Assembly: GCA_017506865.1 (NCBI GenBank)
Contig: JAFCMP010000069.1
Span: 248,001-312,000 of the forward strand
Reading direction: 5' to 3'
Origin: Tribonema minus
Lineage: Eukaryota; Sar; Xanthophyceae; Tribonematales; Tribonemataceae
DNA length: 64,000 bases
Shown here: piece by piece, positions 7,185 through 63,373 of the stretch
Layout: every line of letters starts with the position of its first letter
How positions within the stretch are numbered: position 1 is the stretch's first letter
The notes under the pieces: generated by a model
Told to the model about the DNA's origin: nothing
The model's database searches: none
What the model saw: only the letters and a program-made list of their open reading frames with translations
Made by a program: the position numbers and the translations under genes

Positions 7185-7293
7185 GGGGATGACTGTGTAA
7201 CATGCCCTGTTGGCGCTCGAGGGCTCGCCAAGCGGTACTACACCTCCAGCGGCACTGCACCGCTCTTTGTTTCACATATACCCCAGCCAGGCC

Positions 7294-18441: not shown

Positions 18442-18459
18442 CGGTACTGTAAAGCACTA

Positions 18460-23810: not shown

Positions 23811-26800
23811 CTGCAGTGCGCGACGACGTAGTATTAGGGTTTGGGGAGCAAGGGTTGGTGATGGGAACGGGATACGTGTGTGTGGGTGATTGATAGTTCT
23901 TCAGGTACAACGTGTAAAGGAGGGTTGGAGGAGTTGGGGGCGATGATTCCCAGAGTGAGCGATTTGGAGAGTGCTGCCTCACACTGTTGCAGCAGCTCTC
24001 ACGTACATACAGTACATGCATACATGTATAAAAAACTACACCTGCATGAAGCAGCGGCGCCTCCTCCCCAGCCTCCGCGACCCATTGCTGCATGCAAAAT
24101 GCATACCCTACATGCATACACATAGTCTTTCCACGCCCTCAGCGAAAACTCACCAGAAGTACAAGTAGAAACGCGTGTACTTCGACAACAGGAAGAGATG
24201 GCACACCCGTACACACATACATCACAAACTGCACTGTGCAGCACAAAACTGACTTCTCACAAACATCAAAATCCTCAAACTCCTTCTACAATATCTACAT
24301 ACCTGCATGCAGCAGCGGCGCCTCCTCCCCAGCGCTCAGCGACGCATTCAGCGCACATACAATACCTACCTACACTGCATACAATACCTACATACCTGTG
24401 TGCAGCAGCGGCGCCTCCTCCCCAGCGCTCAGCGACCCCCTGAGCTTCCCCCCTCCCCCCAGCTCCGGCGTGACGGTGCCCGAACGGTGGCGTCGCGCGC
24501 TGAGACTCGCGCTTGAGCGCTGCTGCGAGCTGGCAGTTTGCTGAGCACTGTCCTCTCGTAAAGAGGCCGCTGCCGTAGAGCCCGTGCCTTCGAGCTTCGC
24601 GTGAGGGGATCGGTCTGGGGGACGGAGGGTAGGCAGGTAGAGTTTGAGGGTATGTAGGTATGTAGCGAATATATATGTATGTATATACCTCAAGTGAAGT
24701 ATATACTTCAAGTGAAGTATATATATATACTTTTAGGTATGCAGGTATGCGCGTCAGCGGCGCGCGCAACGGAGGGGGGCGTTGGCTGGCATGGGATGTG
24801 AGGGAGGAAGTCACTCAAGTGCTGTTCGAGCAATACGGTCCTGTGTCACAGTCGGTGGGACAAAATGTGGTGTAGATGTGTGGCCGTGAGCACGACGTGG
24901 TGTACCAGCGCTGCGTCATTGTCGTTGGCAGCGTAGCAGCATCCAATGAATGCGCGGTCTGAACACGTACCCATGCAATGTGCCTGCGAATACCTTTCGT
25001 ATGTGCAACTCTACTGTTGCTTAATATGTTCAGGTAGTGCAGGCATGCCTCAACGCTCCACAAAAATTAATCTCTCAAGCTACAGGCACAGATAAGTGCA
25101 ACTTAACCAGTGCGTCACCGCTCTTATTCTGATACACACAGCAGTGCGCCCTCCGCCACCCTGGCTTGAAAGACACACGTAGCGCTCTTGAACATTTGCA
25201 ACGAACAAGACAATGCCTGCCCCGCTGCTCACTGTCAAGACCCGACAGCACGTGCTGCAGCGTTGCGCATCCCTGGCTGAGCCATGTTAGCCCAGCAGCG
25301 CTCAGCACTTGCAGTTTATATTATTGAAGTGCGCGGCAATGTAGCAGTGCTCAGCAATCAAGCATCACTGATTCCCTGACTCTGACGCTGGAGATCGACA
25401 GCAGCACCCACACCATTCACCGCAACGCAGGGGAAAACACCGATGGTGCATCCCATTGTTGTCATCGCACATATGCACATGTGTACATACTGTACAGTGA
25501 TGTTTTGCTTCCTTTGGAAACTGCATTGTTTCCAGAATGTGAAGCCAACATGGAGGTGCCAACCTCAACACCAATTCACAAAGTTCAAGTTTAGCAGGGG
25601 TTGGCGCAAGAAAATAAGCTGTTACGCACCACATACGCTGCTTTTTTTAAATTATTGCTGACGGACAACCCGAGACGGAGCGAAAACTGGGTAGATGGAA
25701 CTAGAGGTTTGCACCTCTAGCGTGGCGAAGCTAGGGGACCAGACAAGGCTCCTGACACGCGCTCCACTGCTACGCTACTGCTCGCAGGTGAGGAAAGGAG
25801 AACGCTACGGATAGCTCGTGCTAAACAACCTGGAGCCTTCCATGTCGCCGCATGGATTGGTTCGAAACCCGCGTCATCACCTTCTACACTACGCGCATTC
25901 AAGAGCGCTGTCACTAGCTGCTGACCTCTGTGTTGGGCTGCCGGCTGGAGCTGGCCTACCGAACACGTGAGACCTTTCCAATACTGAACACCCATGCCTC
26001 GAACGCTTAAAGCTTGCACACAAAAGTCATTTTGACTGGTGGATACGGTGGTATTGTTTGACCCGTGGCCAATTGCTGAGCAGCGGCGACCACGGTTACT
26101 GGTGGAAGGCACTTGCGGCTAACCATCCCTTGTCACCTAGAGCTCTACGATCTTTTGATTTGTTTTCATTCATTGCTGCGTACGCATCAGCTATGTACGT
26201 ATCAGCCTACCCGAGCCGACGAGGAGGTGCCAACCTCAATACCATTTCACAAAGTTCAAGTTCATTTCACAAAGTTCAAGATTAGCATGAGCCGGCTCAT
26301 TCATTATGTATATATTAGCCTACCAGTGTCTGGCAGCGCATCCAAGTCCACGGACGCCGCCATCCCGGCGCTGGTGCTGCTGACGTCGCTGCCGTCCACA
26401 CTGCCAGGACCGCTGCCGCCGACGCCATTAGCACCGCTCAGGTGGTGGCCAGGCGGCGCATGCACCACGACATGTCGAACAGCGTCGCGCTGCCGATCGC
26501 CCTCGTTGTGGTAGTACATGGCGCCAAAGTTGAGGGACCTGCGCACACGGTGAGGATAAATTTGATGTAGGTAGGTTTGTGTGTGTGTTCTGAGAGATTG
26601 TCATCATCGGAGGCTGAATGGGCTGAAGAAAGCGTAGACCAGGCATTCGGGTGGGAGATGTTGAAGTGCAGGAGGCGTACGCTCAAAACGCTGGGGGGGG
26701 GGAGGGGGATACTTCGAACGGAGGCTGCAAGAGTTGAAGTTCAACTTCACCTACAATGTGATCACCATCGATGATGGCGTGCACCAATCCGTCAGTAGCA

Positions 26801-29800
26801 CTTGACGGCCGTTTGCGTGCGTCCGATGTCTTGAAAGCGCGCAGTTGTCGGCTGCGTGCTGCGCACTGCCGAGATGTCGTATGGCAAATGACATGATCGG
26901 TACGTGTCAGTGCAAAGCAGAGGCCAGCTTTCTACAAACAGACCTGTGTCCTGCTTTGTCGACAAGTGCCACTGACGATTGATGGAAGCATACACATAGC
27001 ATGCGCATTTGCCGCACAGGCAACCAACCTTGCACACACAAGGATAACGCACATGCTCCACACTCGACCCCCTTGGATAGCTCTGATCTGTGCACCTGAT
27101 TTGTTGGGGTCACTCTCAACCCTGTGTTCACGCTGACTGAACATACTTTATCGGCTGTTTCTCATCACCGAGCTGTAGAGTAACCATGTAGCCCCTTGCC
27201 GATGGGGGCCTTTTTCAGCTTCAAACCGCGTGTACTCCAATGCGGCAAGCAAACTGCAATAGCAGAAGTTGAAGGTGTTGAGGGTGTCACGCAATCACTG
27301 AGCCAGCCGTCAGAGGATGCGAAGACTGAGTTCATGACTCACGTGTCTGGCCGATAGGGTATGGTGAAGAAGAACACACATCCGCGCCGCTGCGCCACAC
27401 GAGGCAGGGTGCAGTGCAACAAAAGAAGGAGGGAATGGAGGCAAGGCACCAAAAATGAGCGCAGACATTTGGTGAGGTGCTGAACACCGAATTCGACTCA
27501 AGCAATTATACTCACAACGCCTTGCGCAAATGCGTGCCCCCCACAGAAGGGGGGAACAGGGCGAAGGTCCAAAAACAGCATTTGCCAGCACCTCCTGCAC
27601 TTCCTCATCGCTGCGCATACTTCAAGCTGGCCAACATTGGTTGCACGGACGCTAGCGAGCCTGCAGCGGTGAGGGTTAGAGCTAAGGGTTAGGGTTTGTG
27701 CCATGCACAGGAGGCGACATGCTGCTGCCCCTGTGCCGCATTCACAATTGTTCCACTACATGTTTATTTATTATAAGCAAGCGGGATGAGAGAGTTCAGC
27801 ATTTCATGATTAAGGTCAGAAGGTACCGTGGCAATGTGTGACAACAAGCGCCGGCGCACGGACAACACAACCTTGTGTGCTGCACACCAAGTATATACAC
27901 TTCGAAGTATATATATATGAACATCATACGGCGACCATTAGTATTGGTGGAAGGCACTGGCGTCTCACCACACCTTGTCACCTAGAGCTCTACAATCTTT
28001 TGAATCGTTTCTATGAGTGTACAGGAGGTGTCTAGGCATGTATGTACATGCGTATATATTTACATACCTCGGGGTTGTCTTCTAGTCCCACGGTGCCGCC
28101 CAGCACCTGTACCTTCTTCTTGACGCTGTACAAGCCCAGACCAGTGCCGCCGCCCCCCTTTTTCAGCTGGCTGAAGGGCTTGAACAGGACCCCCTGACAA
28201 GCATGAAAGCGGTGATTTGATGAGCACTGAGTTCCCTGACACGCATAACTTCAAAGTGTTAGATGTGAAAACATGAGTGAATGAGCTGCGTGTACAGGGG
28301 AAAGCAGATTTTTTTTCTTCTTCTGAGCGTTCCCACGCACTTGGCGGTTGTGTGGACATGGCAGATGTGTCAAAAGTGGTGTGCTGCAGGGAACTCAGCT
28401 GGCACAACTGCAAGGACAGCACACTGTCAGCAAGATGAGCAGGAAATGTTGACCAGCATGCCACTGCTTCCATGCCAATATGCGAAGGACGACGCGTATC
28501 GACTATTTGCGTACACGCAACCCTATACTTCAAGTACATGCTGCATCTGTGGTCGCGAAGTGCAGCAAGCCATCAGCATCACAGCGCGTTTTCTTCTGAT
28601 GTACACCGATTTGCATGCGTTGATTGGCGAAAAAACGCCCTGCAAAACACAAAACATGTTGTTCAACCATATTCAGCCATGGAGACGTCAACCCCTTGCC
28701 CGGAATCACGTGCCCCTGAGCCTTGTGATGGGGGTGGGGTGTGCACCAACTTCAGGTCGCAGCAACGCAACACATTAGCTGAAACGCACTGACGCACACC
28801 CAGCGTCAGCAATGCATACCTTCTTACATCCATAATACATGCCAAACACACCACACAAATGAAAAAATTAAACACTGTCACATAGGTTCAACTTGAAGTA
28901 CCTTTTTGTCGTCGGGCACGCCCGGCCCGGTGTCTCGGACCTCAAAGCGGAGGTGCTCTGGCGTCTGGCCGGGAACTGGTGCCGGCACCAGAGTCACAGA
29001 CATCTGAATGGAGCCCTGCGTTGTGCATGCGTACGTGCATACGGGGGCAAGGGTTAGGATGAGGGCTAGTTGTGGCACCAGAGTCACAGACATCTGTATG
29101 GAGCACTGTGTTGTTCGTGCGCGCATGCATACGTGGACAAGGGGGTTAGGGTTAGGGTTAGGGTCACTTCTGCCGTGCAGCCGAGGTAGGGTTAGGGTTA
29201 GGGTTGGCTGTCTCATGGCGTCAAAGCATGGCACTGAAGCAGTGGCCCCGCATCACCTGGCCGTCACCGTTGTCATGTCACGGTTGGAGCATTTTAAAAA
29301 AGCAAGAAATTAAAAGGTATATGATAAGTTTATGATGTTCCGAAGTAGGAGTATTAGACATGTGCACGGAGCCCTGTGATACTGAAGGATGCGTACACGC
29401 CGTGCACAACTCTGCAACCTGCTACATACCGTATAATTGCGCAATGACAGCTGGCCATGAGGTGGCATCGCATGATGCCCATCGGTATCGCTTGATGTGC
29501 GCGGGCGTGTGCGCAAACAAAGCAATTTCAACCGGGTCACACAACTTCAACTAACGCACCAACACAATGTGGCAATTAAATGTGAGACAGTGTGTGTCAC
29601 TTGGACGAAGGCAAGGGGGATGGGTACTGATGATCAAGGAGCGTAGGTACAAACCACAGCCTACCCCCTAACCCAAACACTAATGTGACCGTAACCCTAA
29701 AACCCTGTTCCATCTAGAAGGAGTGGCACTGCCTGGCCGGAATGCAGCAGTTTGGCAGAGACCGGCATGTAGTCTAATCATTCTGTAATATCACTTTTCC

Positions 29801-32800
29801 GCACAGCACAGGGGGCTTGCGGTCTCATGGCGGTTGTTGTGGACCACTTCAAAAGAAGTGCTTGAATACTTCCAGTCTACCAGTCATGGCTTCCAGCCCA
29901 AGTCATGTTCCTACCTCAAGTAACCGAAGTATTGAGCTGCATTACATCGAGCTGGCGAGGGTGTTCTTACTACACAACACTTTTCGGAGTCTACTTCGAA
30001 GTATAGTGCACACCAACCAGTAGCGTTCGTGCATAAGTGCAGCAGCGCGTCACCGCTTGAATTTACATCTTTGGTGAGCTTCTGAGCGTTGCTGAGGTAG
30101 TTGATGGAGCACTCCCACACCCAGTCCCGGTCCGTCAGCACAAAGCGGGACACCTGAGCGGGGACAGGGGCACGTATCAGTATAGGAGGGGGGGGGGGGG
30201 GGGGGGGGTATGCATCTCGAAAGAAGCAGGCATACTGTCTGTCAAATGCGATTGCAAGCGTCGCTGCACCTTGAGCAAGCGACACTAACAAAAACGTCTT
30301 ATCTGATATAATGGACACTGTCCGACATTTGCGATGCTCTTGACTGCGTGACCAAAATTGCAGGCCAGCCCCCAACTGGCGAATACGTAATGTTGGTGTG
30401 GCCATCGTTTGCATCACTGCAAGCATCAAATTCGGGAGCAGCAGCGTCTCCACCGCAGTGCCAAAAGTGAGAAGGCTCTGACTGAGCGATTTCTGAGTAC
30501 GATAGGTGTTCTGGCAGTCAGCCGAGCCCTAACCCTAACCCTAACCCTAACCCTAACCCTGCGTGGACCACAATCCTACACAAACGCCTATGCCCTGTGA
30601 CTGCTTGTGAGTGCGTTTCGTAATTGTCAGCCACCCATGCAACTGGCTGTCCCAAATGCGCGGTCACCCCCCCCTTTACTGCCGTGCCGCAAATGCTGGA
30701 CAGTGTCCATTATACTTCGGACACGACGGTATCACACAATTGCAAAGCCCTGCCGGCAGCAACTGACGAGATTATGAATGAGCTGGCGACACTCTTGCGC
30801 TCTCACATGAGCACGCAAGCGCCTTAGGTCCAGAACATAGGTAAAGCCCTGCCGGCATCAGGACAGAGGCTTGCAGATGGTGTCGCAGCAACGCGCATGC
30901 TGCTGCTGTCCATGGCACAGTGCTCAAATGGCAGAACCCTGGCAAAACCGGTGGAACCTTCGCAGACCTGGCAAAACGTTGGCAAATCGCTGCATTTTTT
31001 ACTGTTGCCACTTGAATAATGATGTATTGCCTCACTCGACTTGGCATCAACAATATATACCGACTTACGGCCCATGGCCCTCGGCGTGAAGCCGCAAGCA
31101 TCTGCGTCAGTGCCAGTGCAAGGCCGACACAGCTGAGACTTTGCAATCCTCACCCTTGGGTCGATGTAGAACTGAAACGGCACTTGAGAGGCCCCCGTGT
31201 ATCCAGTCATGATGCGCCGGCACTTCTCTAACACCAGGTCGTGAATGTCGGTGCTGGCTATGTTGGGCACCAGAGCAATGCCTGCGGCGGAGATGGCACG
31301 CGCAGTGGGTAGGTAAGTACGGCTGACATTGCATGGCTCAGCAATGTTCAAGTTGTTCCTGCAGGGCGCTGATGTGCCCTTTGAAGTTCATGCAGGTTTG
31401 GCACGCTGGTTCTCAGTGATGATGTCTAGCAGCACGTGCGTCAACCTAGCCCCAACTTCAACCCTAGTTGAAGCATCACTCACATGGTTGAAACTTAACT
31501 TCAACCCTGATTGCACCATCCCTCACCAGCTCGATGCCAGAAATAGTCCATGGCCTTCTCGCGCCTAAGCGTCATCATGTTGTGCTCTGTTTCCTACGCT
31601 GCAACATTTACCCTATCCCTTATCCTATACCTGACCCTTACTTACCCTTATCCTTAATGCTAACTGTTACTCATGTTTGCCGCAGCATCGCTCACCAGCT
31701 TGATGGCGAAAGTAGTCCATGGCCTTCTTGCGCGTGAGCGTCATCATGCGAACGTCAACAACTGTCACCCTTACACCTGACCCATTATCTAGCTTCAACT
31801 CGATCGCTCACCACAAACCCTAACTTCAACCCTAATCGCTCACCAGCTTGATGTCGGAAGTAGTCCATGGCCTTTTTGCGCTCGAGTGGCATCATGTCTC
31901 GTGCTGTCTCCTACACTGCCACAATTTAACCTAACCCTTGTACTATAGGCAATCCTATTTATCCTTGCCGCAGCACTGCTCACCAGCTTGATGTCGGAAG
32001 TAGTCCATGGCCTTCTTACGCGTTAGCGTCATCATGTCTCTTGCCGTCTTCATAGTCTCCAGCACGTCCCGGTAGTCATTTGACACCACCAGCGGGCTGC
32101 TGAACAGGAGGTCCAGCCCGAGGCTGAAGAAGCACGGGGGAACAGGGGCAGCAGCGCTCAGCAATGTGTGCATCCAGCGCGCGCTTGTCTTTGTTGCATG
32201 CGCACGCAACGCCAGCGCACCCGCACTCAGCCCCTCGCCGCCAATGATCAGTCGCAAGCGGGCAGCCTTGGGTTAGCGTTAAATATGCCGCATCCATAAG
32301 CCACATTACATGCAGGCACCTGCTCAGCACAATTGTTCATGTTGGTGGATGAATGAGGCAGCGATACGGATGATGCTGATGCCTCCAATCACTTTGCAAG
32401 TACAAACTCTGAAGACCAGACCAGACCAGTGAAGAGGGTGCCGGTGTTGCCCTGCTCTAACCCTAACTCACCCTGAGCCGACACGATTTTCAAGCAGCGC
32501 ACGCTCGGAAGGACGAGTGGCTGCAGCGAGCAGCACACCAAGGCATTGCTCAGCACTTTGCCAGCTGAAACAAGATTCTTGGGCATGCATAAGGAGGAAC
32601 GGACAACACTGCAGCAGAGGTATCTGGTAAATGGCGCATGTCTTGCACGCAGTGTGCCACACATGTGGCAATTCTCTGCATCACTCCTGCAGCAGGAACT
32701 GGTACTGAGGACACCATCACACAGCCAAGCAGTTCAAAAACAGACCAGCACGACATGGCGGCGTGATCAGGGTTCATCACAAGGCATGTGGAGCGTCGGG

Positions 32801-35800
32801 ATCACACCACAGGCGGCAGTACATTGCAGCTATGTTTGTTGGTATTGTTGCTGTTAGCACTCATGCCGTGCCCCTGCCCTGGTGATGCCCACACAGCAAT
32901 GCAAGGTACTTCATGAAGGCTTCTCACTCTTGAAAGCTGACCCCAACTCAAACCTCATCCCTAACCCTGCAGCCGTGCCACGACCAAGTGCAAGTGTGAC
33001 GCACCTGAAGGTGGCGAGCGGCGTGCCAATGTCGTGCAGCGTCTGCGCGACGTACTCCCTTCGCACCTCCTCCCCCGTCATGACCACGCGGTAGCGTGCA
33101 GCGTCGGCGTCGCCGCTGCCGCCATGCGCACCCGCCCCATAGTCCGCCTCCACCAGGCCCCACACCCACCCCGCCGCCGCGCGCATGATGCCGCAGAGCG
33201 CGAGCCATTCCAGCACCCACCATGCGCACACCAGCGCCCCCACCTGTCTCCCCCTGTAGCACCGTATGTGCATAGGTATGTGCATACATTAACTCTGGTG
33301 GTGTATATACTTGTACAATCGTAGATGCATGCGTGGGTGGCAGCGCTCAAATCTCGTATGGGGGTCATTGCGCGCTCAGGAATTGTGTCTGTGCCGTAAT
33401 AAACAAGCACAACGCCACGGCTCTTGCCGTTGCCATCTCGACAGTGAGTGACCACAACAATGCTGGTGGGAGCCTTTTCTTATTGCGCCGTCAGCACCAG
33501 GTGCACGTTTGTACCCACAGTTTACATCATAGCTGACGTGTGGCGCTCGTAGAAGATGAGGCGTGCAGACCTTCGCATACATGGTAACGCTAAGGGGGCT
33601 GACCCAACAAAATAGCAGAATTTAAAAATAAAAAAAAAAGTCAGGCAGCACTCTTCTCAGCCAACTTCCAAGAATGGTGAAGGAAGCTGTGCAGATTTAG
33701 TGTTGACGACCATGCACAGTGGCAGAAGTTCCCAGGCGATAGCACAGTTCATGGTTTTGGATATGGATCAAATCGGTTCAGGGGGCCACAACTGCCTTCC
33801 GGTTCGGTTCGGTTCACAGCTCAGCCCCCAGGTTCACAGTTCGGTCCCAATTCAACTCAGAGGGAATTACGGTTCAAATCAACTAGTCTAACAAGATGGT
33901 GCACGGTTCGGTTCAAGTACGGTTCAACTCAAGGTTTCTGGTCAATAACCACTGATGCCAAATACCAACAGTGCTTGCATCTTTGGTAGCAAGTCTTCAA
34001 AAATCGTACATATTTGCGCTCTGTATACGGCCTTGAAGTTGAAGTAATGTATGACAAGCTGATTAATCACACGTAAGTGCTTTAAACATCAGAGTTGAAG
34101 TTAGGACACGAAAAATTAGCCCCGGGGATCAAATTGCCAGAAGAACCGCCAGGCTGGCGACCGCTCCTGCGACTTGCCTTTGCGCGCAGGCGCCGCCTGC
34201 TTTAATTGCAGTGTGCCAGCGCTTTGCGTGTCTAAGCCGCCACTATTGATCATAGGAGCTGACTCATCATCTGAGACACATAAAGGAGCTTTCCCTAGCT
34301 CAGCCGTCGCGGCAGCTACAGCACCAGCCCTTGTGTCAGCCACCTCTGCAGTGTAAGGATTCACCGACTTGTTCGCAAACAAACACACACTACATACATG
34401 CCCCTATAAAGTAACGGTTCTCTGTGCCTCACGGATCAACACGACTCAGCTTGACGGAACAGAGAGACGAACACGGATCAGATCAACTCACACTGTGTAT
34501 GACGACGATTCGGTTCAAATCGGATCACGCAGACAACGGATCAGTTCGCTTCGGTTCTGATTCTGAACCGTGAACTGCTCTTGATCTGTCGTGGCCGTGA
34601 ACTGTGCCTTCCCCTGGGCAGAACAAGCTGCGCTGCGCAGTGATCTGCTCTTTTTTACAAAACATGTCATCCATTCAATTGTCAAGACAATAAAGTCACA
34701 AAGCAATGGTGCGGTTGATCAATCAAACTTAAACTTATAAGTTGAACTTTAAGGTGAAAGTTCAACCAGTGACTCTCACCGTCCTTCCCCAGCATGAGTG
34801 CTCCCCCCCTGCCACTCCTCCACCAGCAGCTTGCCAAACTGCCACAGAACCAGACGAGGCATCGCGTTGATGATTGTGAGCGAGCACCCCTTCCGCAGGA
34901 TCCTGAATGGGCATTAGTGCTCCTGTACTATATGTACTTCAAAGTTTTAGATACATGAGCCATAGCCTATCGCTGCGCCTGCTTCTTGTTGGCATCAGAA
35001 ATGCGCTCACCGCAGCTGCTAGCAAGCATTAATGATGATGCTCAGCGCAGGATGCGCCAAGTGCTGCTGCTCGCAAGCGTTGTGACAATGACGCTCTGCG
35101 CTGAGCACTGGTTGCAAAACGCAATGAGCGCTGCTGCTCTTGACACATGCTGCTCATGAAGTGGTGACGCTCCCAGCGATCTGAGCACTGCTGCTCACAG
35201 GCGATGATGATGATGATGATGCTCAGTGCATGTAGTTGAGCGCTGCTGCTCACCAGTGATCATGATGATGCTCAGCGCAAAATGCACAAAGCAGCAGTTG
35301 AGCGCTGCTCACAAGTGATCATGCTGATGCTCAGCGCAAAAACGCAACAGTGTGCGGTCGAGCGCTGCTGCTGATCAAACACGAGTACGGCGGCGCTGCC
35401 GCCTTGTGATCATGGCGATGCTCAGCGCGCAACACGCAGTTGAGCGCTGCTGCTCATCAGGTAGAAGTACGGCGCCGCCTTGTGATCACGGTGACGCTCA
35501 ACACACAACATGCAGTTGAGCGCTGCTGCTCACCAGGTAGAAGTATGGCGCCGCCGCCGCGTGCACCGCGGTGACGTCTATGAGCGGCACCAGCGCCAGC
35601 GCGCCCACCAAGTACTGGCAGACCACGAGGCTGCAGATGTAGGCAATGTCGTACGCGCCTGACTGGTATGCGCTGGGAGAAAGCGCACCTGCTGATGCCT
35701 CCGCCGCGCCCCTGACAGAGGCGTTGGCAACGACAGTTTGGTGATTGAATGTGCGCCGCTGCCGCTGCTGCTGCTGCTGGTAGTGGTGGTGGTGGTGTGA

Positions 35801-38800: not shown

Positions 38801-38981
38801 GCACTGCAAGAGGTGATGCTATGCATGCATGACGCAGCGGCAGCAGAGCAACAGCTGCACACACAAAGCCACCTAGCAGCTAACTTCACCTGTTCTTCTG
38901 GGGCCTGCCAACGCGTCCCTCCAGACCTCCCGCAGCTCCTTATCGCCTGGCTCCAGCGACGCCAGCGCTATCATCCCAGAC
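20281..38981 (-). CDS. membrane-anchored hybrid histidine kinase, about 18 exons
   Basis: Exons read on the minus strand: 38981-38890, 38174-38077, 37201-36888, 35672-35534, 34902-34780, 33247-33005, 32123-31984, 31281-31154, 30153-30067, 29015-28902, 28193-28068, 26538-26324, 24614-24396, 23810-23359, 22806-22753, 22099-22019, 21202-21060, 20427-20281, about 970 residues in all. The product is a two-component sensor: several hydrophobic helices, then HisKA, HATPase, a Ser-rich linker and a receiver domain with a Gln-rich tail. It would autophosphorylate on His and pass phosphate to its own Asp. Most junctions close in phase. Three do not with simple borders (35534 to 34902, 28068 to 26538, 21060 to 20427), so micro-exons, other donors or single-base errors are likely. 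The N-terminus before 38981 was not found. Borders of 36888 and 33247 use weak sites and are tentative. Confidence 0.82.
22121..22320. repeat. CAG-rich minisatellite beside a receiver exon
   Basis: Six or seven imperfect units of about 25-35 bp, each a run of CAG/CAA plus TGCTCAGCGGTCA, lie just upstream (minus sense) of the acceptor of the 22099-22019 exon. Read on the minus strand the array is CTG-rich and could act as an extended pyrimidine-rich tract. Confidence 0.8.
24040..24445 (-). repeat. donor-side exon-end duplication, 3 copies
   Basis: The end of the 24614-24396 exon (GEEAPLLH, then GTATGT) recurs at about 24301 and 24040. The nearest copy keeps about 45 bp almost unchanged, including the GTATGT donor. 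Confidence 0.85.
25549..26280. repeat. direct repeats flanking a 630-bp segment
   Basis: GGAGGTGCCAACCTCAA followed by a TTCACAAAGTTCAAG tail occurs at about 25549-25590 and again at 26222-26260, where the tail is doubled. The 630 bp between includes a hairpin, CTAGAGGT-TTGC-ACCTCTAG, at 25699-25718. The arrangement suggests an insertion or a segmental duplication in the histidine kinase intron. No coding domain is recognised inside. Confidence 0.55.
26095..26163. repeat. dispersed repeat, copy 1
   Basis: About 65 bp containing GGTGGAAGGCACT and TTGTCACCTAGAGCTCTAC, followed by ATCTTTTGA. It matches 27944-28009 with a handful of changes. Confidence 0.7.
27944..28009. repeat. dispersed repeat, copy 2
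   Basis: Second copy of the 26095-26163 sequence, same orientation, 1.85 kb away, ending about 60 bp before the donor of the 28193-28068 exon. It may be the end of an undefined mobile element. Confidence 0.7.
28981..29130 (-). repeat. acceptor-side exon-start duplication, 2 copies
   Basis: The acceptor and first 30 bp of the G1-box exon (starting at 29015) recur upstream at about 29072-29125, offset about 88 bp, with the ATGTCTGTGACTCTGG exon sequence kept. A weaker third copy may lie near 29352-29380. Confidence 0.72.
29141..29206 (+). repeat. interstitial telomere-type repeats (TTAGGG)
   Basis: Two short runs of GGGTTA repeats (three or more units each) lie in a histidine kinase intron. 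They imply TTAGGG as the telomere unit of this organism or of its ancestors. Confidence 0.85.
30188..30208. repeat. poly-G tract (about 21 G)
   Basis: A homopolymer of about 21 G just upstream of the N-box exon acceptor. Its true length is uncertain by most sequencing methods. Confidence 0.85.
30525..30561 (+). repeat. interstitial telomere-type repeats (CCCTAA)
   Basis: Five to six perfect CCCTAA units in the intron between the N-box exon and the exon at 31281. Opposite strand sense to the 29.1 kb array. Confidence 0.9.
31523..32060 (-). repeat. donor-side exon-end duplication, 4 copies
   Basis: The last 60-70 bp of the exon ending at 31984 (MTLTRKKAMDYFRHQAG) with its GTGAGC donor recur at about 31844, 31696 and 31526, spaced 140-170 bp. 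Each copy retains the CCATGGACTACTTCCG-like exon sequence and a donor-like GTGAG. Pyrimidine-rich CCCTAA-like sequence fills the spaces. Confidence 0.88.
33733..34616 (+). mobile_element. non-autonomous hAT-like transposon, copy 1
   Basis: The element begins CAGGCGATAGCACAGTTCATG and ends with the inverted form CGTGAACTGTGCCTTCCCCTG, so its termini share a CAGG...GCACAGTTCA TIR of about 21 bp. The flanks share GGCAGAA (33721-33727 and 34617-34623), a likely eroded 8-bp target duplication, although on the left it lies four bases outside the TIR. Subterminal stretches are packed with GGTTCA/CGGTTC words, as hAT transposase-binding regions often are. There is no transposase. It lies in a histidine kinase intron and matches copy 2 at 53754-54597 in reverse orientation. 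Confidence 0.72.
35240..35560 (-). repeat. donor-side exon-end duplication, about 5 copies
   Basis: The exon end TACTTCTACCTG plus GTGAGCAGCAGCGCTC at 35534 recurs downstream near 35454, 35372, 35309 and 35250. The two nearest copies retain most of the exon part; the far ones retain mainly the intron start and GCTGAGCATCATCATG-type sequence. Confidence 0.75.
37878..38110 (-). repeat. donor-side exon-end duplication, 3 copies
   Basis: The end of the 38174-38077 exon with its donor (CAGGCAGCCAAG then GTGCGT) recurs in the downstream intron near 37985 and 37881, spaced about 89 and 104 bp. Copies keep the exon end and the start of the intron and are progressively diverged. Confidence 0.75.
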
Positions 38982-49100: not shown

Positions 49101-52100
49101 TTGTTCGTGATTCAGGGCGAGTTGATCGCCGACCACTTGGCAGAGCTGTGACGAATCCTCAGCAGGCGCAGCTACGATGGGCCCACCCAGTATCTTTGAT
49201 ACCCACTTTGGTAGTGGGGCACCCTTGTGCTAATTGGAGCACTTCATCGTATACACGGCAGGCCTCGACACACCCACAGCGATGATGAGGCTACTGCTGT
49301 TGCTCTGTAGAGATAAGGGCTGCTATGCTATTCTGCTCTTGTTTTCTGCTGCGCTGCTGCTGCTGCTCTGTTTTGAGAGTCGCAACTGCAAGTTGAAGCT
49401 AGTGAAAGACAAATCACTCTAGCGCGACGAACAAGCCAGATGGAGGGGGGCAGCTACCCGGAAAGAGAGGCTTTTTTGGAAGTTGCGCTGAAAGCGGCCA
49501 GACGCTCAGCCCACCAACCCCCACCCCGGGTGCGCGCACAAAGACCTTGAGGCCTCAGCTCCTGCGGAAAGACTCCCCGTAACCTTTTAACCCTAAACCC
49601 AGCGGCCCCCCGTGGTCACCAAGGGTGTCTAGACAGCCTTTCCACTCCGTGGGGGGCCCTCATTTATAATTCTCTGGAATCAGTGGTGTTTTAACATAAG
49701 TAGGGGGAAGGTAGGGCTTTCCCACCAATTCCAATTTTTGAGTAATATATTATGAGCACACTTTCACGCCCACCCTAGCCCTTACCGTCACAACTAGGGT
49801 TTGTCAACCCTAACCCTAGCCCTAGGGCTGCTGGCTCACTCCACTTACACTTCAAGGCAACGCGCCCAATTTGGGCTTAAACAGGTGTGTGGACTACTGC
49901 AACAGGTTCATGGTCCTTAACAGATGTGCTGTGACGTTTGCGAGCGTTTTTGAGTTCCGGAGTTTCCGGCCCAGCCGTCGGCCCTGAAACTACATACTTC
50001 TAGTAATTTAAACCTCTTTCCGAAACTCCTGAGCCGGAACTCGGAGGTTTGTGCGTGTACCCTGCCCACCCACCTCAACGCTACTTTTTGCTCAACTGTC
50101 GCACGTTTTACAAAAGTACGTGCATCACCTCATCTTTTCTGTTGAGATCATGTTTCGCGCATGCTGCGGAAGAGCATCTGCCTTGCCACTACTACTATCA
50201 CACTGTGCTGCCACCACGCCAATCACACCAACAGCGCCACGCGATGCACGACAACTTCAAGGCGGTGTGAGTGAAACGGATTACTGCAACGCAACCTTTC
50301 CAAAGGAGAGAGTGAGAGCCGCAGGCCGCAAGGATTGGCGGCAGGCTAGAGACTGCAGTACGATGCGCGTCGAACGCCAATAGGCGGCATGCAATGAAAG
50401 CTACTTGTGCAGCAACACCGCACGCGCGGAGAGCCAGCGCCAGAAGAAGCTCGCAGCTTGCTGGGTTTTTTCCGATGGAACAGGAACAAGGCAACTAAAT
50501 ACCTGCACGCTGAGTGGTAAACACGGTCGTGTCGCGATGCCTGAGGAACAATGCACCTGCGCCGATTGAAGGCCATGCGTAACATTCCGCAAAATCAGCA
50601 CTCGACTTCGCAAAAATCAGCAAGTAAGGCATCACCCCGGTGCATCGGTAGTGCGGCGCATCGCACGCGCTACGTAATGTAGGAAGGCTCGCGCCCTGAA
50701 GGTCCCTCGCCTATAACTTGAAGGGGTTCTGGCGGTGAATCTCAACCTGACAACACTCCCCCGGAAATGAGCCCCCTAAGTCACCCAGATGAGCAGTCAT
50801 CGCCAGTCTCGGTTACATCGTTTCCCCCCCGTTTTAACTGACTGAATGAATTCGGGCTTACAGGGCCTTGCGGAGGCATTTCGCACAACAAATGGAAACA
50901 CTCACCAGTGTGCCCAGAGCCATCATCTCCAGTTTCGTGGCAAAGTTGCAGGCAGTGATGGAGAGGACTTGGGAGGTGACCACAGCCCGCCGTATGGACA
51001 CTGCCAGGCTCTTCATCTGCAGCCACAGCAAGTTCAACAGCAATTTCAACAGCGAATTCAATGGCAAGTTGAGCATCATCATCACCCTGACAGAGCGACA
51101 AACGCGCATCTGCTCGTTGCCCACGAGCACGCAGGCTGCGGACAATTTTACGCACAAGGGTCATTACATTACTATCCATACGTACATACCCAGCACCACC
51201 CCTCCCCTCGTACTCCATGAGCAGGCACGAACGCTTGCTGCTCCCGCTCCCCATACAGTAGGTAGGCGCATACGTCCATACATACTTACATCCCCAGCAC
51301 CCCCCTCACCTCATACTCCATGAGCAGGCGCCCAAACATCTCCAACGCCTGTTCCGCATGCGCCCCATACAGTAGGTACGCGCATACATCGATACATACT
51401 TAAATCCCCAGCACCACCTCACCTCGTACTCCAGAAGCAGACGCGTGAACGCCTCCTGCTCCAGCGCCGCATGCGCCCCATACAGTAAGTACGAGCGCAT
51501 ACGTCCATACCTACATATCCAGCACCACCCTCCTCACCTCGTACTCCATGAGCAGACGCGCGAATGCCTCCTGCTCCTGCTCCGTGCGCGCACCCGAGGG
51601 AGCGCCACCTGGCGCGGCGGGGCCTGCAGCAGTGCTCGACCACGCGGCCATGACGCGGCGTTTGAGCGCTGACAGCGCGCCCTCAAGGCTCACCAGGCCG
51701 CCGTGCTTGAACCCCAGCGCGTGTGCTGTTGCGGGGCGGGCAGGGTAGGCAGGCATGGTTGTTTGAAGGTTGCATGATGATGCTCAGATGGGGGTTGAAC
51801 CCCAGCGTGAGGGCTGGTGAGGCAGGCAGGGTACGCAGGAAGGGGCTCACACGATGACGATGAAGTGTTGATGGTCATGGTTGATCAGGGGGGTGGGATC
51901 CCAGCATGCGGCTGTTGAGGCTGGCACGTAGGTATGTATCAGCAGTGTGTAGAGGTTCAGGTTTGATTGCGATGAGGCTGAGCTGGGGTGTTCTAAATGT
52001 GAACACCATAAGCACATTGCAGCATGATGTTCAAGGTTTGCGCAACACTTCACTTGCAGAAGTAGTTTTGATCTACAAGTGGATGTCTACACACAAGAGG

Positions 52101-55100
52101 CGCTGCACTCGGTGGGTGCAAAAAGTCACAGTGGAGATGACATCGTTGAATTGGTAGCGTGTGCTGTCACAGCCGTGCCAGTGGCGCGTGCAATGCTGTA
52201 GATTCAATCGCGCGCCCAGCATGCTTGACACCATTCTGTGCACGCTCCTCTCATGTCTGATTATTGGAATACGATCAACGACGAATACGATCAACAACAA
52301 TGAAATCCCTGTGAAGATCACCAAAGTGCACGTGCGTTGTGAATCCAACCTGTGATAGGGTTGTGGCGCGCATTCAACTGACAGCTTCTCATGCTTTGAG
52401 CATTTGTTCCTTCACTGTGGTTGCACCAAGTTTGTGTTGGCTACAGTTGGTTGTCAAAACCTGAGCGTGGGTATGGCATGTAAGACAGACAGCAATCACG
52501 TGACAATTAACAGAGCCTGCAGTGCTCAGCACGGCGTACATACATACCTGATGGGGCGCCGGTGGTGGTCATGTCAAAGTGCACTACGGTGCTGCCGGGT
52601 GCAGGCAACGTGCTCCAGATTTGCGCGTGCAAGTTGGTGGCGATGAATTGCAGGTCCTGTGAGTGCACAAGTTCAAGAGATCAAAAGCATATCAGCTTCT
52701 CATGCTGCTGTGAAGAACATGGCAACGCATCATTACCACTACAACACGCTTGCGATGTTGGTACAGCCAAGAGTCTGCCGCTGCGAGTGTGTGTTTTAGC
52801 TTAATGAGCACTGACACCCCTGTATATACTTCAACATATATTTGCAGCGCTTCACGGTGTACATATCGGAAGACATACAATGCGATTTGACCTTGAAACG
52901 AGGAGTCCTGAACCTCATAGTCCGGTGAACATCCTATAAAGTGACCGCAATTGGACAAGCACGCCGCGTTGACCTCCAGCTGGACGCAATGTCACAGCTG
53001 TAAGGGAATGAGTGCGCCAACGCAAAGGCGCACACGAACAGCGGTGTGTGCTTCGTGTCCAGCTACTTCCAGCACAGCACAATGGCCACTGTGTTGTGGC
53101 GTGGGCGTTGCCCTCACTGACGAGAGGAGGGTGGCTCTCCGTGCACTACACAACTTCAACATAGGGCAGGCTCCGGTGAACTGGCCAAACGCCAGCACGC
53201 GCTTGATGCGAGACACGATGGACGGCTGTGTGGCACACCTCAACCAGGTGAAGGGCCATCTAAAGTGGCAGGTACGAGGCTCTGCGCGTGCTGCCTAACA
53301 GCTGGTGTATTCGTCCCCTTACAGCCATCACAAAACCATTTGGAGAAACAGATGATAGCGTCACACAAATGCTTCTTCTTCACGTCCAACCCGCGCGACC
53401 ACGCGACAGGCTGCTGCGCCATCGAACTTCGACCACGCTGCACAAAATTAAAACATGAAATTGTTGACACGTCAGCGTCACCGCGTTCTTCACCTCCTGG
53501 CTGCCCCTGGAGGTGCACATCTGAGCCGCATCAAGCGAAGTTCAAATGTACCTCACCGTAGTTCAACACGCAGGTCATTTTCGTAGTACCAGCAAGTCAG
53601 TCAACTTGTTCTTCTTCTCCCGGCTGCATCTGAAGTTGAACACCTGAGTTACATCAACCGACAGTTGACGTTCACATGTACCTCACATCAACAAGCGAGT
53701 CATTCTGTAGCGTCAGCAAGTCAAGTCTGTTCCCTTGTTCTTCTTCTCCTGGCCAGGGGAAGGCACGGTTCACGTCCAGGACGGATCAAGAACATTTCAC
53801 GGTTCAGAATCAGAACCGAACTGAACTGATCCGTTGTCTGCGTGATCCGATCTGAACCGAACCGTCGTCGAACACGGTGTGAGTTGATCTGATCCGTGTT
53901 CGTCTCTCTGCTCCGTCAAGCTGAGCCAAGTTGAGTTGATCCGTGAGGGCGGGGGGATCCGCTACTTTTCAGGGTTTTATGTGCATATTTGATTGCGCAC
54001 AGAGCCATTGCATCACTACACTGCCCGCAGATGGTTGACACAGAGGCAGGTGTAGATCCCGCGGGCGGGCGACTGAGCTTCTCAAGTGTCCAATGATGAG
54101 TCAGCTCCTATGATCAATAGTGGCGGCTCAGAGCACGCAAAGCGCTGCCACGCTGCAATCACAGGAGGCAGTGCCTGCTCGAAAAGGCAAGCCGTAGGAG
54201 CGGCCGCGCGCGCCAGGCTTTCTCCAGATTGACAACTTCTGTCCCAACTTTAACTTTGATGTTCTACCCAACTTCAACTTTGGTCATCCAAAACCAATTT
54301 AAAGGCCGTATACAGTGCGCGAATATGTACTTCCTGAAGACTTGGTACGACAAGTGCATGCAGTGGTGGAAGTATTGCAAAAGTGGTTGATGAAGGGACA
54401 CTTGAGCTGACCCGTCCTTGAACCGAACCGTGAACCATCTTGGTGAGTTATTTTGAACCGTTGTGCCGCCTGAGTTGAATTAGAACCGAACCGTGAATCT
54501 GGGGGCTGAGCTGTGAACCGAACCGATCCAAAAGGCGGTCTTGGCCCCATGAACCGATTTGATCCACATCCAAAATCATGAACTGTGCTGTCCCCCGCTC
54601 CTGGCTGCCCCTGAAGGGGCACATGAGCAGATTGACGCAAACCTTGGACGTGATCCAAAGTCATTGACACGTGAGTCACTCTGACTCATTCATAACATCA
54701 GAAAGTCAAGTCACCTTGTTCTTCTTCTCCTGGCTGCCCCTGAAGGTGCGCTGGTCCTGCATCATCTGCGTGTACAGCTTGCCCACGCGCGCTATCATGG
54801 CCGCCTGCTGACCAACCGCACGCGCGTGCGCCTCGCACCACGCCAGGGGATACTCCGTCTCCTGCAGCGGCGCGAGCGTTAGGGTTAGGGTTAGGTTTAG
54901 GGTTACGGCTTAGGGTTAAACCCTAAGCGCGGCGAAGATCAGCGCGTGCGCCTCGCACCACGCCAGCGGATACTCCGTCTCCTGCTGCGCAAAGGTTAGG
55001 GTTAGGGTTTAGGGTTAAACCCTAAGTGCGGCAAAGATCAGCCGGAAGCTCTGAAGTGCGCACCCCGTAGCAGTGGTTTGTGACTGCGTTTCGGGCGCGC

Positions 55101-58100
55101 ACTTCACACAAGCGAGTAGTGCGCTACACGAGCCATCGCAGTGATCTAAAAAAGTAGTTGAGAAGTGGTATTGCGGTGGCACCCTGCGTGCACAGCAGCG
55201 CTCTGCACCCCTGCCGCCTGCCTCGCGCTGCGCCGCTGCCACGTGGCGCCCCCACGCGCCAGCACGCAACAGCATGCATCAGCGCTCAGCACGATGCCGT
55301 CGCGGCAGCGCCCACCTCATACATGTGAGCGAGCATTATGTTTGTGCTTTGTACCGGTGCCCTCGCCACTCCACTAAGCGGACCGCACCGCAATGGTTGC
55401 GCGCATAGCGCACACGCCAAATGCGAGCTTCTCCAACCACTGCCGCGGACACACAAAACTGACCAGCTACCGCCAGTTTGTGACGAAGGAGACACGTGGA
55501 TGTGCAACACAGTGTGCCCCTCAGATCAATGTGATGCTGATCACATTGCTGTCCGCCACTCTATTCCCAACCCTAACCCTAACCCTCACCCTAATCCTAA
55601 CCCTAACCCTAACCCCTAACCCAATCCTAACCCTGGCTCACCTCGTACATGTGCGCGAGCGTCTGTATGTCGATCATGTCGCCGCCCTTCCCGATGTGTC
55701 GCATCCACTCGTAGCAGTCGCCCACCTTCCAGCGCGACAGCACCGCGTGCGCGAGCGCGGGGCGCGCAGGGGACACCGAGGGGCTGGGACTGTGCCCCCC
55801 CCCTCCCCCCCCCCCCGCCCCCCTCTCCCCCCTCTTGTCCCCCCCATCGTCGGCGTCGCTGTCTTCGCTGTCGTCGCCATCGTCAGAGTCGTCACCATCG
55901 TAGTAGACGACTGCGGCATCCATGGTGCTGCCGCCCCCGGAAGATGCGTTGCGCTGGTGGCCCGGGGGGGTCTGGTTCTGAGGCGTGGTGTCGGAGGCGT
56001 TGTTCATGGCCTTGTCCTGAATGCACAGGCCGACCAGCACTGCGGGGGTGCTGAGCGTTGAGGAGGCTGCAATGCGGGGGGGGGGGGGGGGGGGGGGGGG
56101 GCAAGCGCAAGGGGGAGCATGGGGGGGGCAAGCGCAAGGGGGAGCGGGGGGGAACGGGGGCGTTCACACATGAACTTGAAGTTCAAGTGCTTCACAACAG
56201 GCGATGTGCTCAGTAGCACTGGTGGCGCCGCAGAATCAGAGGGCGCATACGAGAAGAGGTGAACAGGCATGCTGTGGTGGTGTGCATGCAGTGGGCATAC
56301 ATGAAGTGTGACACTCTATAAGAAGTTCAGCACTGTCCGCAGCATGACTGCTGGACATTGCGCATGCATGACGCTTGTGCCTGCACCAAACACGCACTGC
56401 ACAGGTCAATAACTGCACAACGAGCACCGCTGGCATGGCAAGAGTGGCTAAGGTGCGATGAAGAGGCAGCTGCGGTACTGGAAGTAAGTACTTGAAGTAC
56501 ACTGGAGACACATGGACACATACACATCGCATCATCAATTGTAGGATCACTCTGACAACGGGCGAGATGTGTCTCATGTCGTATTTCAATTCCTAACTCC
56601 AGAACAACCAACACGCAGACTCGTACGCAGTGCAGGGCGGCATGTGGCAACCGCGGTTCAGCACTGCGCACTTCAGATATCATGGGATGCCAATGGCAGA
56701 TCGTGTGCACATGAGTCTCAAAAGTGAACGAAAGGCAAAGTGATAGCAGGCACAAGTACTTGAAGTATCGCTAATAGAAGTATACATCTCAACTCACGTG
56801 TATAGTTGCCCACCGGGTACCACTGCACATTAGTGTGACACGGGCCATCATCGGGGCTGATGGACACGGCAGACAGGGGTATGTTGACCTCCCCTATGGG
56901 GGTATCCACGACCCCCCCACGCATGCTGTACGTCTCCTGGTAGAGGGTGATGCACAGGTGACCTGGCAACATGAGAGCCATCGCAGGCAGTAATACGCAC
57001 AGTTGACCATCAGCAAACGCACAATGGAAGGGGGTGCAAACATGCCTCACGGGAGCGATCGAGGGGGAGGTGAGCGAGTGCGCCAAAAGCTGAGCACTGG
57101 GCACTACACGCAGCAGGATGCCAGTCAGATGCACCCTGACTTCTGTAGTTGTCGACAGTGGTCTGGCGGTATGCGCAACGAGCAGAAGGCATGCATGGAA
57201 CCCACAGGAAGGTGCACAACCAGTGTACTTCAAGTTTGAGCCGCATTTGCTCATCACGCATTATAAGCTTATGACTCATATTGCAGGCATGCACAATATG
57301 CACGACATCACTGTTGAAGTGCAGGTTTTGTGCGGCCAAACTGTGCGGACCGTAATGCAGTTTGAGCCCCCATCCCAATACATGAGCCTATCAACGTCAT
57401 GTACTGTAGGACGCAGCCTCTCAATAGGTCAGACTTCATTAAACTGACAGATATCGAGGCGGTATCATGACTCTAAACCTAATTGCAGCCGACGCGCGCA
57501 TGACACAGTCAGGGTTAGGGTTGGAAAACGCACCTTTGAGTAGGTCGGACTGCTTGAGGTAGAAGCAGAGATCAAGACCCTGTACAGGACCATCTTCCTC
57601 TCCAACTTCAACTCCCTCGCTGGCCGCATTAACTTCAACACGCGCGGACCCTGCCACCATGTGCTGCGTGCGGGGCTGCAGCGGCAGTTACACAGTGTCA
57701 TAGTTACACAGGGGGGGGGGGGGCAGCTGAGGGCTAGAAAGAGGCAACCCTTAAACATGGGTAGGGGGATGGGCCTGACCCTACACTAGCTCGTCAACAC
57801 GCTTTGCGCATAGCTGTTTTTACTACCATCCACAGCAACGTGCCTGAACCGTAATGTACACATGTACATGGGGACCATAATCATCCCTCCATAACCTTAC
57901 TAATCTGCACCATTGGACAGCCAGCAAAAACACCACCCATCGCTGCAAACATTCGCGCACACCAGCAACGCAGCCCCCCTTCCCCCCAAGCAACCCGCAC
58001 AAACTTCAACAATCACGGTGCACAATCTTCAACAGTCAAGTTCACACCTGGTTGTGCTGGCACGCGGCCCTGTTCCTGTTGCTGTTCCACACGGGCGCGC

Positions 58101-61100
58101 ACGTGGCGTACTCCGTGTTTGTCTTGCCGATGACGCGCGTGCGGTCGCGGCGCTGAGCAATGCCACCGGGCGCATCCGCGGCAGCGCTCACGTGCACCAC
58201 CTTGGCGTAGAAGTTGCAGTTCTTGAGGGCCTTGTCCGCGGGGGAGGCGGAGACGCCCAGCTGTGCCACCTGGCGCCCGACGTTGGCCTGCATGCAGGGC
58301 AGTGATGTAAACTTCAAGTTAAAGTGTACTTCGAAGTACAATGTAGTAACTGCTGTACTGATTGATACTGGTGAAGTATATGTGTTCAGTTCGAAACGCG
58401 GCTGCTGAGCCATGCCATGAATGTACGTTTTACTACAGTAGTTCTCGCTCAGGGGGCTCAAATAGACGCCTGAAACACACAAACACTGAACAAACTTCAC
58501 CTGTGCAGCGTTCTTAGCGAGGGCCATGGCCTTCCCCCCCAGCCGCTTCATGTTGCTCAGCTTAAACCCCCCCTGCGCCCCCGCCCCCCCCGCGCTCCCC
58601 CCTGCAGGGGGCGACAGGGCATTCCCCCCCCCAAACTCGGGGGACATCTCGGGCACAGGGGTAGACGGCTGGGTACCCGTGGGGGAAGTTGAAGTAGCCG
58701 CGGCGGCGGCCATGGCGGCAGTGGTGACGCTCCCCATGGAGGCGGCGCCTGCGCTGTAGAGGGCGATGCCGTCGAGCGCTGCTGCCTCTGAGATGTTGAC
58801 CTTGACCAGCACGCGACCCTCCGCAAAGGCCTCCGCGTTGCTGCTGAAGTAACCCTGCGTTAGCGTGGAAGGGAAGGGGGAAGGGGGAAGGGGGGGGGGG
58901 GGGGGCAGGCAGCAGCGTTGAGCGACTGGGAAGGAGGTCTGAGCACTGCTGTTGATGTACTTGTGCAGCAAAGTGCGCAGGGGTGTGGCGAGGGGGGGAG
59001 AGGGGGGGGGGTCTGTGAGGGCACGGCTCAGTAGCAAACCGGTTGGGGGAGCCTATCAATAAATCTGCTTTCAACTTGATGACGCAAGGATGAGTCTTGT
59101 CCCTGTGGATACCACTGGCATTATGGCATTGTTGTGGCATGGCGGACTTGGGCTGGCATGCGCGCGCTCGGTACCGGTCAGCCACAATGCAGCAGCGCGC
59201 AAGTCCTACTGAGTGAGGCACTGAGTACACTGCGGTCCAACAACTGAGAGAAAACACTCAAAGTGGGCCTCTTGAAGTTTGACAAGTGCACATCGTGCCC
59301 TCAAGTACAAGTTGTACTGTACAACATCTAACATGCACAACACGGCTCAGTATTGTGCTCACACCTGCATCAAGTATCCCGTATGCAAAAGAGCACAGAT
59401 GCTGGCGGTGACCACATTCTCTTCTTTTTTAGAAGTATCCTTCAGATACTATGCATACATACCTGCCGTATGCGTTCCATTTCCACACGGCCCTGCCACG
59501 CCTGGCTGGCGACCTTGAGCATGCTGTACAGCGGCCTCAAAAGTTCCAGCTGCAACAGCGCACATATGTTACAGCGCAGGTATGGGAGAGGGAGGGGCAC
59601 AATGAGGTACATGGTTACTGAGCAGTGAGACGCTTCGTTGCAAGGCATATGTGTTCCAGCTGCAACAGAAAGAGGAAGGCACAACATGCATGTGTCAACA
59701 TGGGAGAGGGGGGTGCATGACAAGGTACACGTTGATGAGCATTGAGACGCTTCGTTGCAAGGCAAATGCACAATAAGGTAGCAACTGTATACTAGACTGG
59801 GCATTTTGCGCCCGAAGCGAGCATTATGTGAAGTGTTTTCAAAGATTCTGACAAGTCTTGTGTGTCGCCGATATCACCACACCGGTTGCAGCTTAAAGGT
59901 GCCTGCCAGGCAACTGTAGTCGTGCTGCTGAGCAAGTTCAATTTACTGACTTCAAACCTGACATAGCTCCCAGCACGCGCACGAGACTACTGCGATTCAA
60001 TGCCTGCCATCGCGTTCAAATGTACACGCACTGAAGGTGGTCACCCATATACTGCTGCTACTGCTGTGCGACAAGGGCCATGGCGCTCACAGCAGAGTTG
60101 CCCAGTGCCCACAACATCGCACAGGCTGTGCACATGGGTATCGTAAAGAGACCCAAAGCGGGCTCGCGGTCGTCACCTGCGCCATCACAGTGCTCAGCAC
60201 AACATCGCACAGGCTGCGCATAAGGGTAAGGCGGTCGTCACCTGCGCCATCACAACGCTCAGCACAACATCGCATAGGCTGCGCATATCGGTAAGGAGAC
60301 GCAAAGGCGGCGCACTCAGGTGGTCTCCCGCGCCGTGGCAATGCTCAGCATGAGCTACCGAGCGCTGTAGCACAGGCCTCCAACGCTCCTACCAGCGCCA
60401 ACGCTACACACTTGCACTATTTGTTACAATACAAGCTATCAGATACGCTGCCCAAACATACATACCGGCAGGCTGACGGAGAACTTGGGCTCCACGGTCA
60501 TCTCCTGCACTGTCACAATGCTCGGCGGAGCCTGCGTAGCCGGCTGCGACTGATACTGCCACGGAGAGGCGGGCGGTTGTGATGGGGTTGGAGCAAGTGC
60601 CGCAGCAGGCGCAGGCGGCAGCGCAACAGCTGACAGCAGGGGGTCTTCGGGCGGCGGCGTGGGAAGCGCGGTGAGGGGCGGCGTCATGGGCAGTCCTGTC
60701 AGCAGGTCAATCTGAGCAAATGGAGAAGGGGGGGGGGGGCGGGGAAGAGGGGGGGGGGGGGCGGGGGGCAGAGGGTCAACAAGACTTCAAACCACACGAG
60801 GTCTGAGGCTAGGGGGGGGAGAGGCGGCAGATGGCTAGCAATTGGTATGACAATGCGCAGCGAAAAACACTTGTGGCACTTTGAAATAATGGCAGGATTA
60901 GATAGGCGTTGCTGATGCTCAGCGTTGCGTAGTGATGGCGATTGCTCCGCCATTGTGAAGCTATTGTGTGTCCAGGCCGACTGGCGTTATGTGGCACCGC
61001 TCAGCAAGCGCGCGACGTTCGCTCTCTTGCCGCCGGCACTTTCATATTGGCAGCAGCAGTCTGGGAACTGTGGGATGTGACAGCGCAGCATCATCAGCAT

Positions 61101-63373: not shown

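Follow-up and report, generated by a model that had tools for sequence, protein, structure and literature searches.

In genes of Tribonema minus, exon ends and their splice sites lie repeatedly as tandem copies in the adjoining introns, and we consider the probable explanation to be recurrent local tandem duplication, tolerated as the exon-side splice site stays intact. The event is of a known kind and its density is striking; what appears to be new here is that a single genome combines such density with a neutral decay series of copies and, possibly, a border bias. The analysis started from the window, a 64-kb stretch that forms part of a genome of 158 Mb in 554 contigs. An FtsZ encoded in this genome matches a T. 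minus (Xanthophyceae) protein at 100% identity across 82% of the query, in agreement with that source. Exon models come from our own two-strand gene-finding HMM, trained on ~340 kb made up of the window, 20 coordinate-chosen loci (L009-L028), 20 loci from a tubulin search (L029-L048) and eight loci chosen via a double-donor pattern (L001-L008); L049 and L050 are absent from the gene models. The HMM arrived at a sensible splice consensus (AG/GTGAG at the donor, GCAG/G at the acceptor, the slash marking the junction) and gave long multi-exon genes on the minus strand of the window. A variant with laxer splice penalties drifted toward micro-exons and was discarded.

The eight pattern-picked loci are left out of the junction-copy frequencies, the codon-position mismatch between exon and copy, GT and AG retention, the 93-pair set, the tubulin and window pair counts, the intron-only coverage, and all array counts and simulations (the sets of 93 and 64 arrays, the whole-locus and the exon-only counts). 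They are included in the border 50-mers, junction coverage, 98-pair set, pairs of >=90% identity, spacing, bootstrap over loci, indels, copy order, copy-copy mismatch, KS tests, intron lengths and the direct comparison of acceptor with donor copies. The tubulin-hit loci are left out of the whole-locus and exon-only array counts, introns with short exons or of short length were dropped from some counts, and pairs classed as "other" (18/111) were dropped.

With self-BLAST of the window limited to E<=1e-4 and offsets <3 kb, 30 alignments between local direct repeats appear; 27 fall within 24-61 kb, and 24 of those 27 lie at borders listed in the initial annotation. The features are as follows.

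19242..38174, minus strand: hybrid histidine kinase gene with membrane part, kinase core and receiver domain; many exons, ends uncertain; five border arrays
24002..24438, minus strand: donor-side array, end of exon 24396-24614 plus GTATGT, with intron copies 24287-24343 and 24002-24083 (self-BLAST, alignment)
28984..29161, minus strand: acceptor-side array, intron 3' end plus start of exon 28902-29015, with one upstream copy 29074-29161 at offset 90
31496..32049, minus strand: donor-side array, four copies of ...KAMDYFRHQAG/GTGAG (self-BLAST, alignment, P0121 junction)
35398..35555, minus strand: donor-side array, unit 76, end of exon 35534-35614 plus GTGAGC
37830..38108, minus strand: donor-side array, end of exon 38077-38174 plus GTGCGT, two intron copies
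45131..45171, minus strand: exon-end copy (exon 45232-45434) that breaks off 12 nt before the donor
46783..47099, minus strand: donor-side array, end of exon 47032-47115 plus GTGAG, two intron copies, unit ~115
51174..51589, minus strand: donor-side head-to-tail array, four units of ~105-113 bp, end of exon 51538-51725 plus GTGAGG
53477..54749, minus strand: donor of exon 54715-54861 (...GSQEKKNK/GTGAC), with three copies at 53477-53753, ~1 kb into the intron
54822..55042, minus strand: acceptor-side array of exon 54715-54861, offset 120, with CCCTAA repeats in the copies
55310..55334, minus strand: short copy (25 nt aligned) of the end of exon 55642-56066 plus donor (score 35, 0/340 nulls)
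59582..59768, minus strand: repeat of the intron 3' end, upstream of exon 59463-59549, with the acceptor junction copied exactly at 59653-59668
60110..60350, minus strand: intron array (unit 65) whose weak similarity to the last part of exon 60466-60711 breaks off 21 nt before the donor

The exon-edge copies are real at 13 of the 14 listed borders, as judged by self-BLAST, HMM exon ends and alignments against nulls. The claim that each of some fourteen borders carries exon end and splice site together stands for 11 of them: copies span the junction on the donor side at 37.9, 35.3, 31.5, 24.0, 46.8, 51.2, 53.5 and 55.3 kb and on the acceptor side at 29.0, 54.9 and 59.6 kb, the support at 59.6 kb being a 16-nt exact match. 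Two more end short of the junction, namely the copy at 45.1 kb, 12 nt before the splice site (score 37, 0/312 foreign-intron nulls as high), and that at 60.1 kb, 21 nt before it (score 31, 0/252 nulls as high). The border at 62.4 kb is unsupported; its sole match is 13 nt long and lies 48-61 nt inside the exon, and 1/322 nulls scored as high. Two arrays stand out as the clearest, that at 51.2 kb with four head-to-tail units and that at 31.5 kb with four copies. Both include copies with strong-looking donors, in line with the earlier remark that some copies keep a working-looking one. Fillers of shared intron sequence suggest that copies 1 and 2 at 31.5 kb were re-duplicated as a two-unit block to give copies 3 and 4. 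The acceptor-side array at 28984..29161 scores 69, with 0/226 nulls as high. Three repeat clusters within 24-61 kb lie away from borders (25.5/26.2, 26.1/27.9 and 36.6 kb), a point against the explanation preferred here. The dispersed direct repeats 25543-25591 / 26214-26262 (90%) and 26084-26165 / 27929-28010 (84%) are not tandem, lie off predicted borders, and are possibly small mobile elements. Telomere-like CCCTAA/TTAGGG runs occur in predicted introns at 30527-30560, 54878-54918 and 55557-55634, some of them inside an acceptor-side array; the CTAAC within them resembles a branch point motif.

The copies lie within predicted existing introns, both in the HMM models and in the alignment with P0121. 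This ortholog, on a 3,067-bp contig, shows 73% identity to the kinase-core query along 82% of its length; in tblastn it matches eight exons of the histidine-kinase gene and, more weakly, the intron copies 31910-31833 and 31747-31691. The HATPase_c match in this gene falls below cut-off, and a Pfam scan of stop-masked frames over 23.7-38.7 kb found no family in 2/3 minus-strand frames scanned. A CAG-rich minisatellite occupies 22120-22303, in a predicted intron of the same gene. The second gene (43-63 kb, minus strand) is less certain; its joined version, made without six short HMM exons, is out of frame below ~50 kb. The exon 48018-49229 has armadillo-type Pfam matches below cut-off and no homologues at E<=0.001 among 7995 candidates scored.

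Among the sampled loci, 34/211 donor borders (61 copies) and 19/212 acceptor borders (42 copies) have a junction copy in the adjacent intron; the coordinate-picked loci alone give 23/129 donors and 14/129 acceptors. Local repeat clusters range from 0 to 10 per 10 kb in 20 coordinate-picked stretches (six of which adjoin the window), and 12 of these exceed the 2.3 of the window. Arrays hold 2-6 copies at offsets of roughly 60-450 bp. The spacing had been put at 95-125 bp in many cases, and the range is broader, 73-455 bp in 34 donor-spanning pairs. Acceptor copies are rarer than donor copies (21/223 vs 36/222, p=0.034, pattern-picked loci included). A second occurrence of the border 50-mer was found in the adjacent end of the intron for 21/89 donors and 16/90 acceptors, compared with 6/59 for mid-intron 50-mers recurring nearby; in the far end of the intron, border 50-mers hardly recur (1/61 donor, 0/62 acceptor), and the copying is therefore local. 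Of the comparisons with foreign introns, the fraction scoring 44 or more is 0.0000. The median length is 764 bp for introns that contain arrays (n=82) and 552 bp for the others (n=101; p=0.0005), a difference to be read with the greater room that longer introns offer. The proposal of a genome-wide mode of intron growth thus keeps two of its elements, recurrence across the sampled loci and greater length of array introns, the latter with the qualification that longer introns hold more. The tandem-copy share of measured intron ends and middles is 0.31-0.38 in introns with border copies and 0.03-0.05 in others.

The copies had been described as anchored at splice borders. This stands insofar as border-crossing arrays exceed the number predicted by uniform placement, though several tests give no excess, and fails insofar as the endpoints of the duplications lie off the splice site. 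Border pairs number 58/98, against 28 by naive uniform placement. In a single-event simulation with exon constraint, the null fraction of pairs at borders is 0.40-0.43; the observed values are 58/98, or 54/93 without pattern-picked loci (p=0.0025 against 0.43), and a bootstrap over loci gives 0.59 with a 95% interval of 0.49-0.69. Counted as arrays, 68/93 touch a border, compared with 34.2 expected from uniform placement and with a share of 0.26-0.32 in a recurrent-event simulation scaled to intron length. When arrays were found on intron sequence alone, so that a conserved exon copy could not favour detection, 40/64 were border arrays against a simulated 0.16-0.19 (0.235 in a variant); limiting these arrays to those of >=85% identity gives 17/24, and limiting them instead to those whose two exons both score confidently as coding gives 24/33. 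The simulation matches the observed border share when border-straddling events are weighted roughly 8-12 fold. All the simulations rest on rates, ages and unit sizes of our own choosing (60-300 or 60-400 bp, or offsets as observed) and on home-made exon models. Over whole loci, 80 arrays comprise exon and intron, 24 intron only, 11 exon only, 3 are intergenic and 2 mixed. A border bias of arrays is probable; tolerance and exon conservation alone are insufficient for 68/93 against 0.26-0.32 and for 40/64 against 0.16-0.24.

Chance together with selection offers a simpler account, in which duplications fall uniformly, exonic ones are purged, the others are neutral, and border arrays stay recognisable longer through their conserved exon copy. 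Several results fit it. Pairs of >=90% identity show no border excess (6 border vs 8 intron-internal), and intron-only coverage at the ends differs little from that in the middle (0.142/0.186 vs 0.125, 99 introns, p=0.13). Coverage has no peak at the junction, with 21.7% there, 21.2% at 25-100 bp into the intron and 12.7% beyond 200 bp, and neither the tubulin-hit loci (6/14) nor the window (6/13 pairs) alone exceeds 0.43. The pair and array excesses and the weighting they call for argue the other way, so that this account is already disfavoured and we regard it as unlikely. A splicing- or junction-targeted process, whether copying primed at the splice site or an introner-like insertion, would fit the strong border bias of arrays. 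A process that starts at exon-intron borders had indeed been envisaged, but copy edges do not cluster at the splice site: the position of the junction inside the unit is free to vary (KS test against uniform, p=0.61 with 30 donor pairs and p=0.17 with 24 acceptor pairs), and the exonic share of a spanning copy, with medians of 0.51 at donors and 0.31 at acceptors, is compatible with uniform. The copies are moreover local, and no family is common to the sampled introns, as the far-end and foreign 50-mer counts above attest, so that a targeted process is very unlikely. An introner or mobile-element origin is likewise unsupported in the sampled introns, where 50-mers match their own near end and not far or foreign ends. 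Within introns there is no GC preference, arrays being no GC-richer than the rest of the intron (p=0.49, 0.53).

The copies look dead, as junk DNA decaying without detectable selection. Mismatch between exon and copy at codon positions 1/2/3 is 0.103/0.087/0.190, close to the 1:1:2 expected when the copy drifts freely and the exon only at third positions. Indels in exon-derived copy parts are frameshifting in 40/53 cases and in-frame in 13. The copied GT is retained in 46/59 cases against 46.0 expected from decay of the rest of the copy, and the copied AG in 35/42 against 31.8; copied splice sites are thus neither kept nor purged measurably, and no selection on the copied dinucleotides was measurable. 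A role as decoy splice sites had been envisaged for the copies, and selection might equally have kept them as backup sites or as tandem cassette micro-exons. Consistent with such roles are the strong-looking donors at 51.2 and 31.5 kb, the HMM calling copies 51310-51348 and 51423-51455 as in-phase micro-exons, and the annotated T. minus protein P0122 (JKP88DRAFT_272293), a histidine kinase paralog with three near-duplicate segments. Copies compared with one another (69 pairs) likewise differ most at the third codon position (0.15/0.12/0.22), an excess that needs either exon-made copies of different ages or some use of the copies. Against this stand the neutral retention of GT and AG, the frame-breaking indels, exon-derived copy parts that on our reading diverge no slower per lineage than intron parts, the single occurrence of the 31.5-kb segment in P0121, and the chance that P0122 may be a mis-annotation. 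A selected role is accordingly very unlikely. As to the history of the copies, the nearest copy had been held to be the least diverged; this is true in 13 arrays, false in 12 and tied in 3, so that no order with the youngest copy nearest the exon was found. The idea that every copy came independently from the exon gave a mixed outcome, with 42 shared derived sites among copies against 7.4 expected under a star tree; some copies are therefore copies of copies, or the exon has since changed.

Under recurrent local duplication, the reading that we prefer, short tandem duplications (offsets roughly 60-450 bp) would recur locally in T. minus genes, and one that straddles a border would disturb neither the copy on the exon side nor the splice site belonging to it, and so leave the spliced message unchanged. 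At a donor, exon, first donor and intron start would be unaltered and a second set would lie inside the intron, from which splicing would presumably remove it. An acceptor-crossing duplication would be the mirror case, with the copied branch point and acceptor now possibly lying upstream; the rarity of acceptor copies is as expected if such an upstream pair is more harmful. The extra copy, splice site included, then decays, as the mismatch and retention counts show. Later duplications at one place build the arrays of 2-6 copies and probably lengthen the intron, and the repeats may promote further duplication, which would account for the clustering of arrays (0.31-0.38 vs 0.03-0.05). Duplications internal to exons would be purged, as their rarity suggests. 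That arrays straddling a border are over-represented most likely has a mutational cause. Our guess is that duplication may start more often in exonic than in intronic DNA, with only those events that enter an intron surviving. Recent exon-internal duplications, which would have marked exons as hot, were not seen in the 11 exon-only arrays, most of which look old or like low-complexity coding repeats; the period of the best pair is a multiple of 3 in 8/11. As a more tentative extension, which we hold possible and would not bet on, borders may be hotspots of short tandem duplication, several-fold over intron-internal sequence, and as such contribute in a major way to intron length throughout the genome and steadily supply cryptic splice sites.

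The arrays had been thought to have no standard name, which is incorrect. Tandem genomic duplication, or internal gene duplication, is described in PMC3443670 and PMC4974935, also across the intron-exon border, and as there, a short in-gene tandem duplication here moves splice signals to new places. Both defining traits were found, a local segment in head-to-tail copies and a splice site within that segment. According to PMC3443670, introns can be gained when a gene segment that carries splice signals is duplicated in tandem, and duplication-made introns are attributed to Rogers 1989, Gao and Lynch 2009 and Hellsten 2011, as cited in PMC3443670 and PMC4974935. In these accounts the product is a new or multiplied intron, whereas in T. 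minus it is mostly an existing predicted intron that gains copies, and the copies die; this is seen in many introns. The potato RdRp gene of PMC4974935, in which one duplicated segment straddling an intron 3' end and the start of the next exon made one new intron, resembles the acceptor-side arrays in that the segment straddles the acceptor; it differs as a single event with one new intron, compared with recurrent events and copies in predicted existing introns. Rogers and Bendich, as given in PMC11782384, saw direct repeats of 4-30 bp (mean 11.4) near splice sites and read them as insertion marks. Those repeats share the position at exon-intron borders, but the T. minus copies are mostly tens to hundreds of bp, tandem, and on one side. 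Introners are linked to large-scale intron change in algae and protists (PMC9860276; Amoebophrya, PMC7789003). They are families copied into many genes, whereas a T. minus array copies its own exon edge, and no one family in many genes was found among the sampled introns. Within the literature searched, which held few subscription journals, we found no report of exon-edge copies in Tribonema or of genome-wide border-straddling arrays.

If the reading is right, border-crossing short tandem duplications would be an important source of intron length in T. minus and would leave behind copies whose origin is known and whose series can be dated, the introns filling up with defunct sequences that resemble real splice sites. 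Each copied site would at first match a functional one, and so offer a natural experiment on the rate of splice-site decay and the tolerance of a second site. T. minus gene models may include dead copies as exons, as in P0122. This protein maps to C1:822536-831673 (-) with exon identities up to 98%, and partial matches adjoin its exons at C1:829171-829263, 827867-827950, 827993-828100, 827206-827394 and 826300-826401; copies seem to have been annotated as exons there, rightly or wrongly. Elsewhere in the window, positions 12457-18456 (-) hold a retroelement, an open frame of 1,999 codons in which the reverse transcriptase domain RVT_1 narrowly passes its cut-off (E 6.4e-07), and HMM exons at 7287-9674 (+) resemble a protein kinase gene, as judged by eye.
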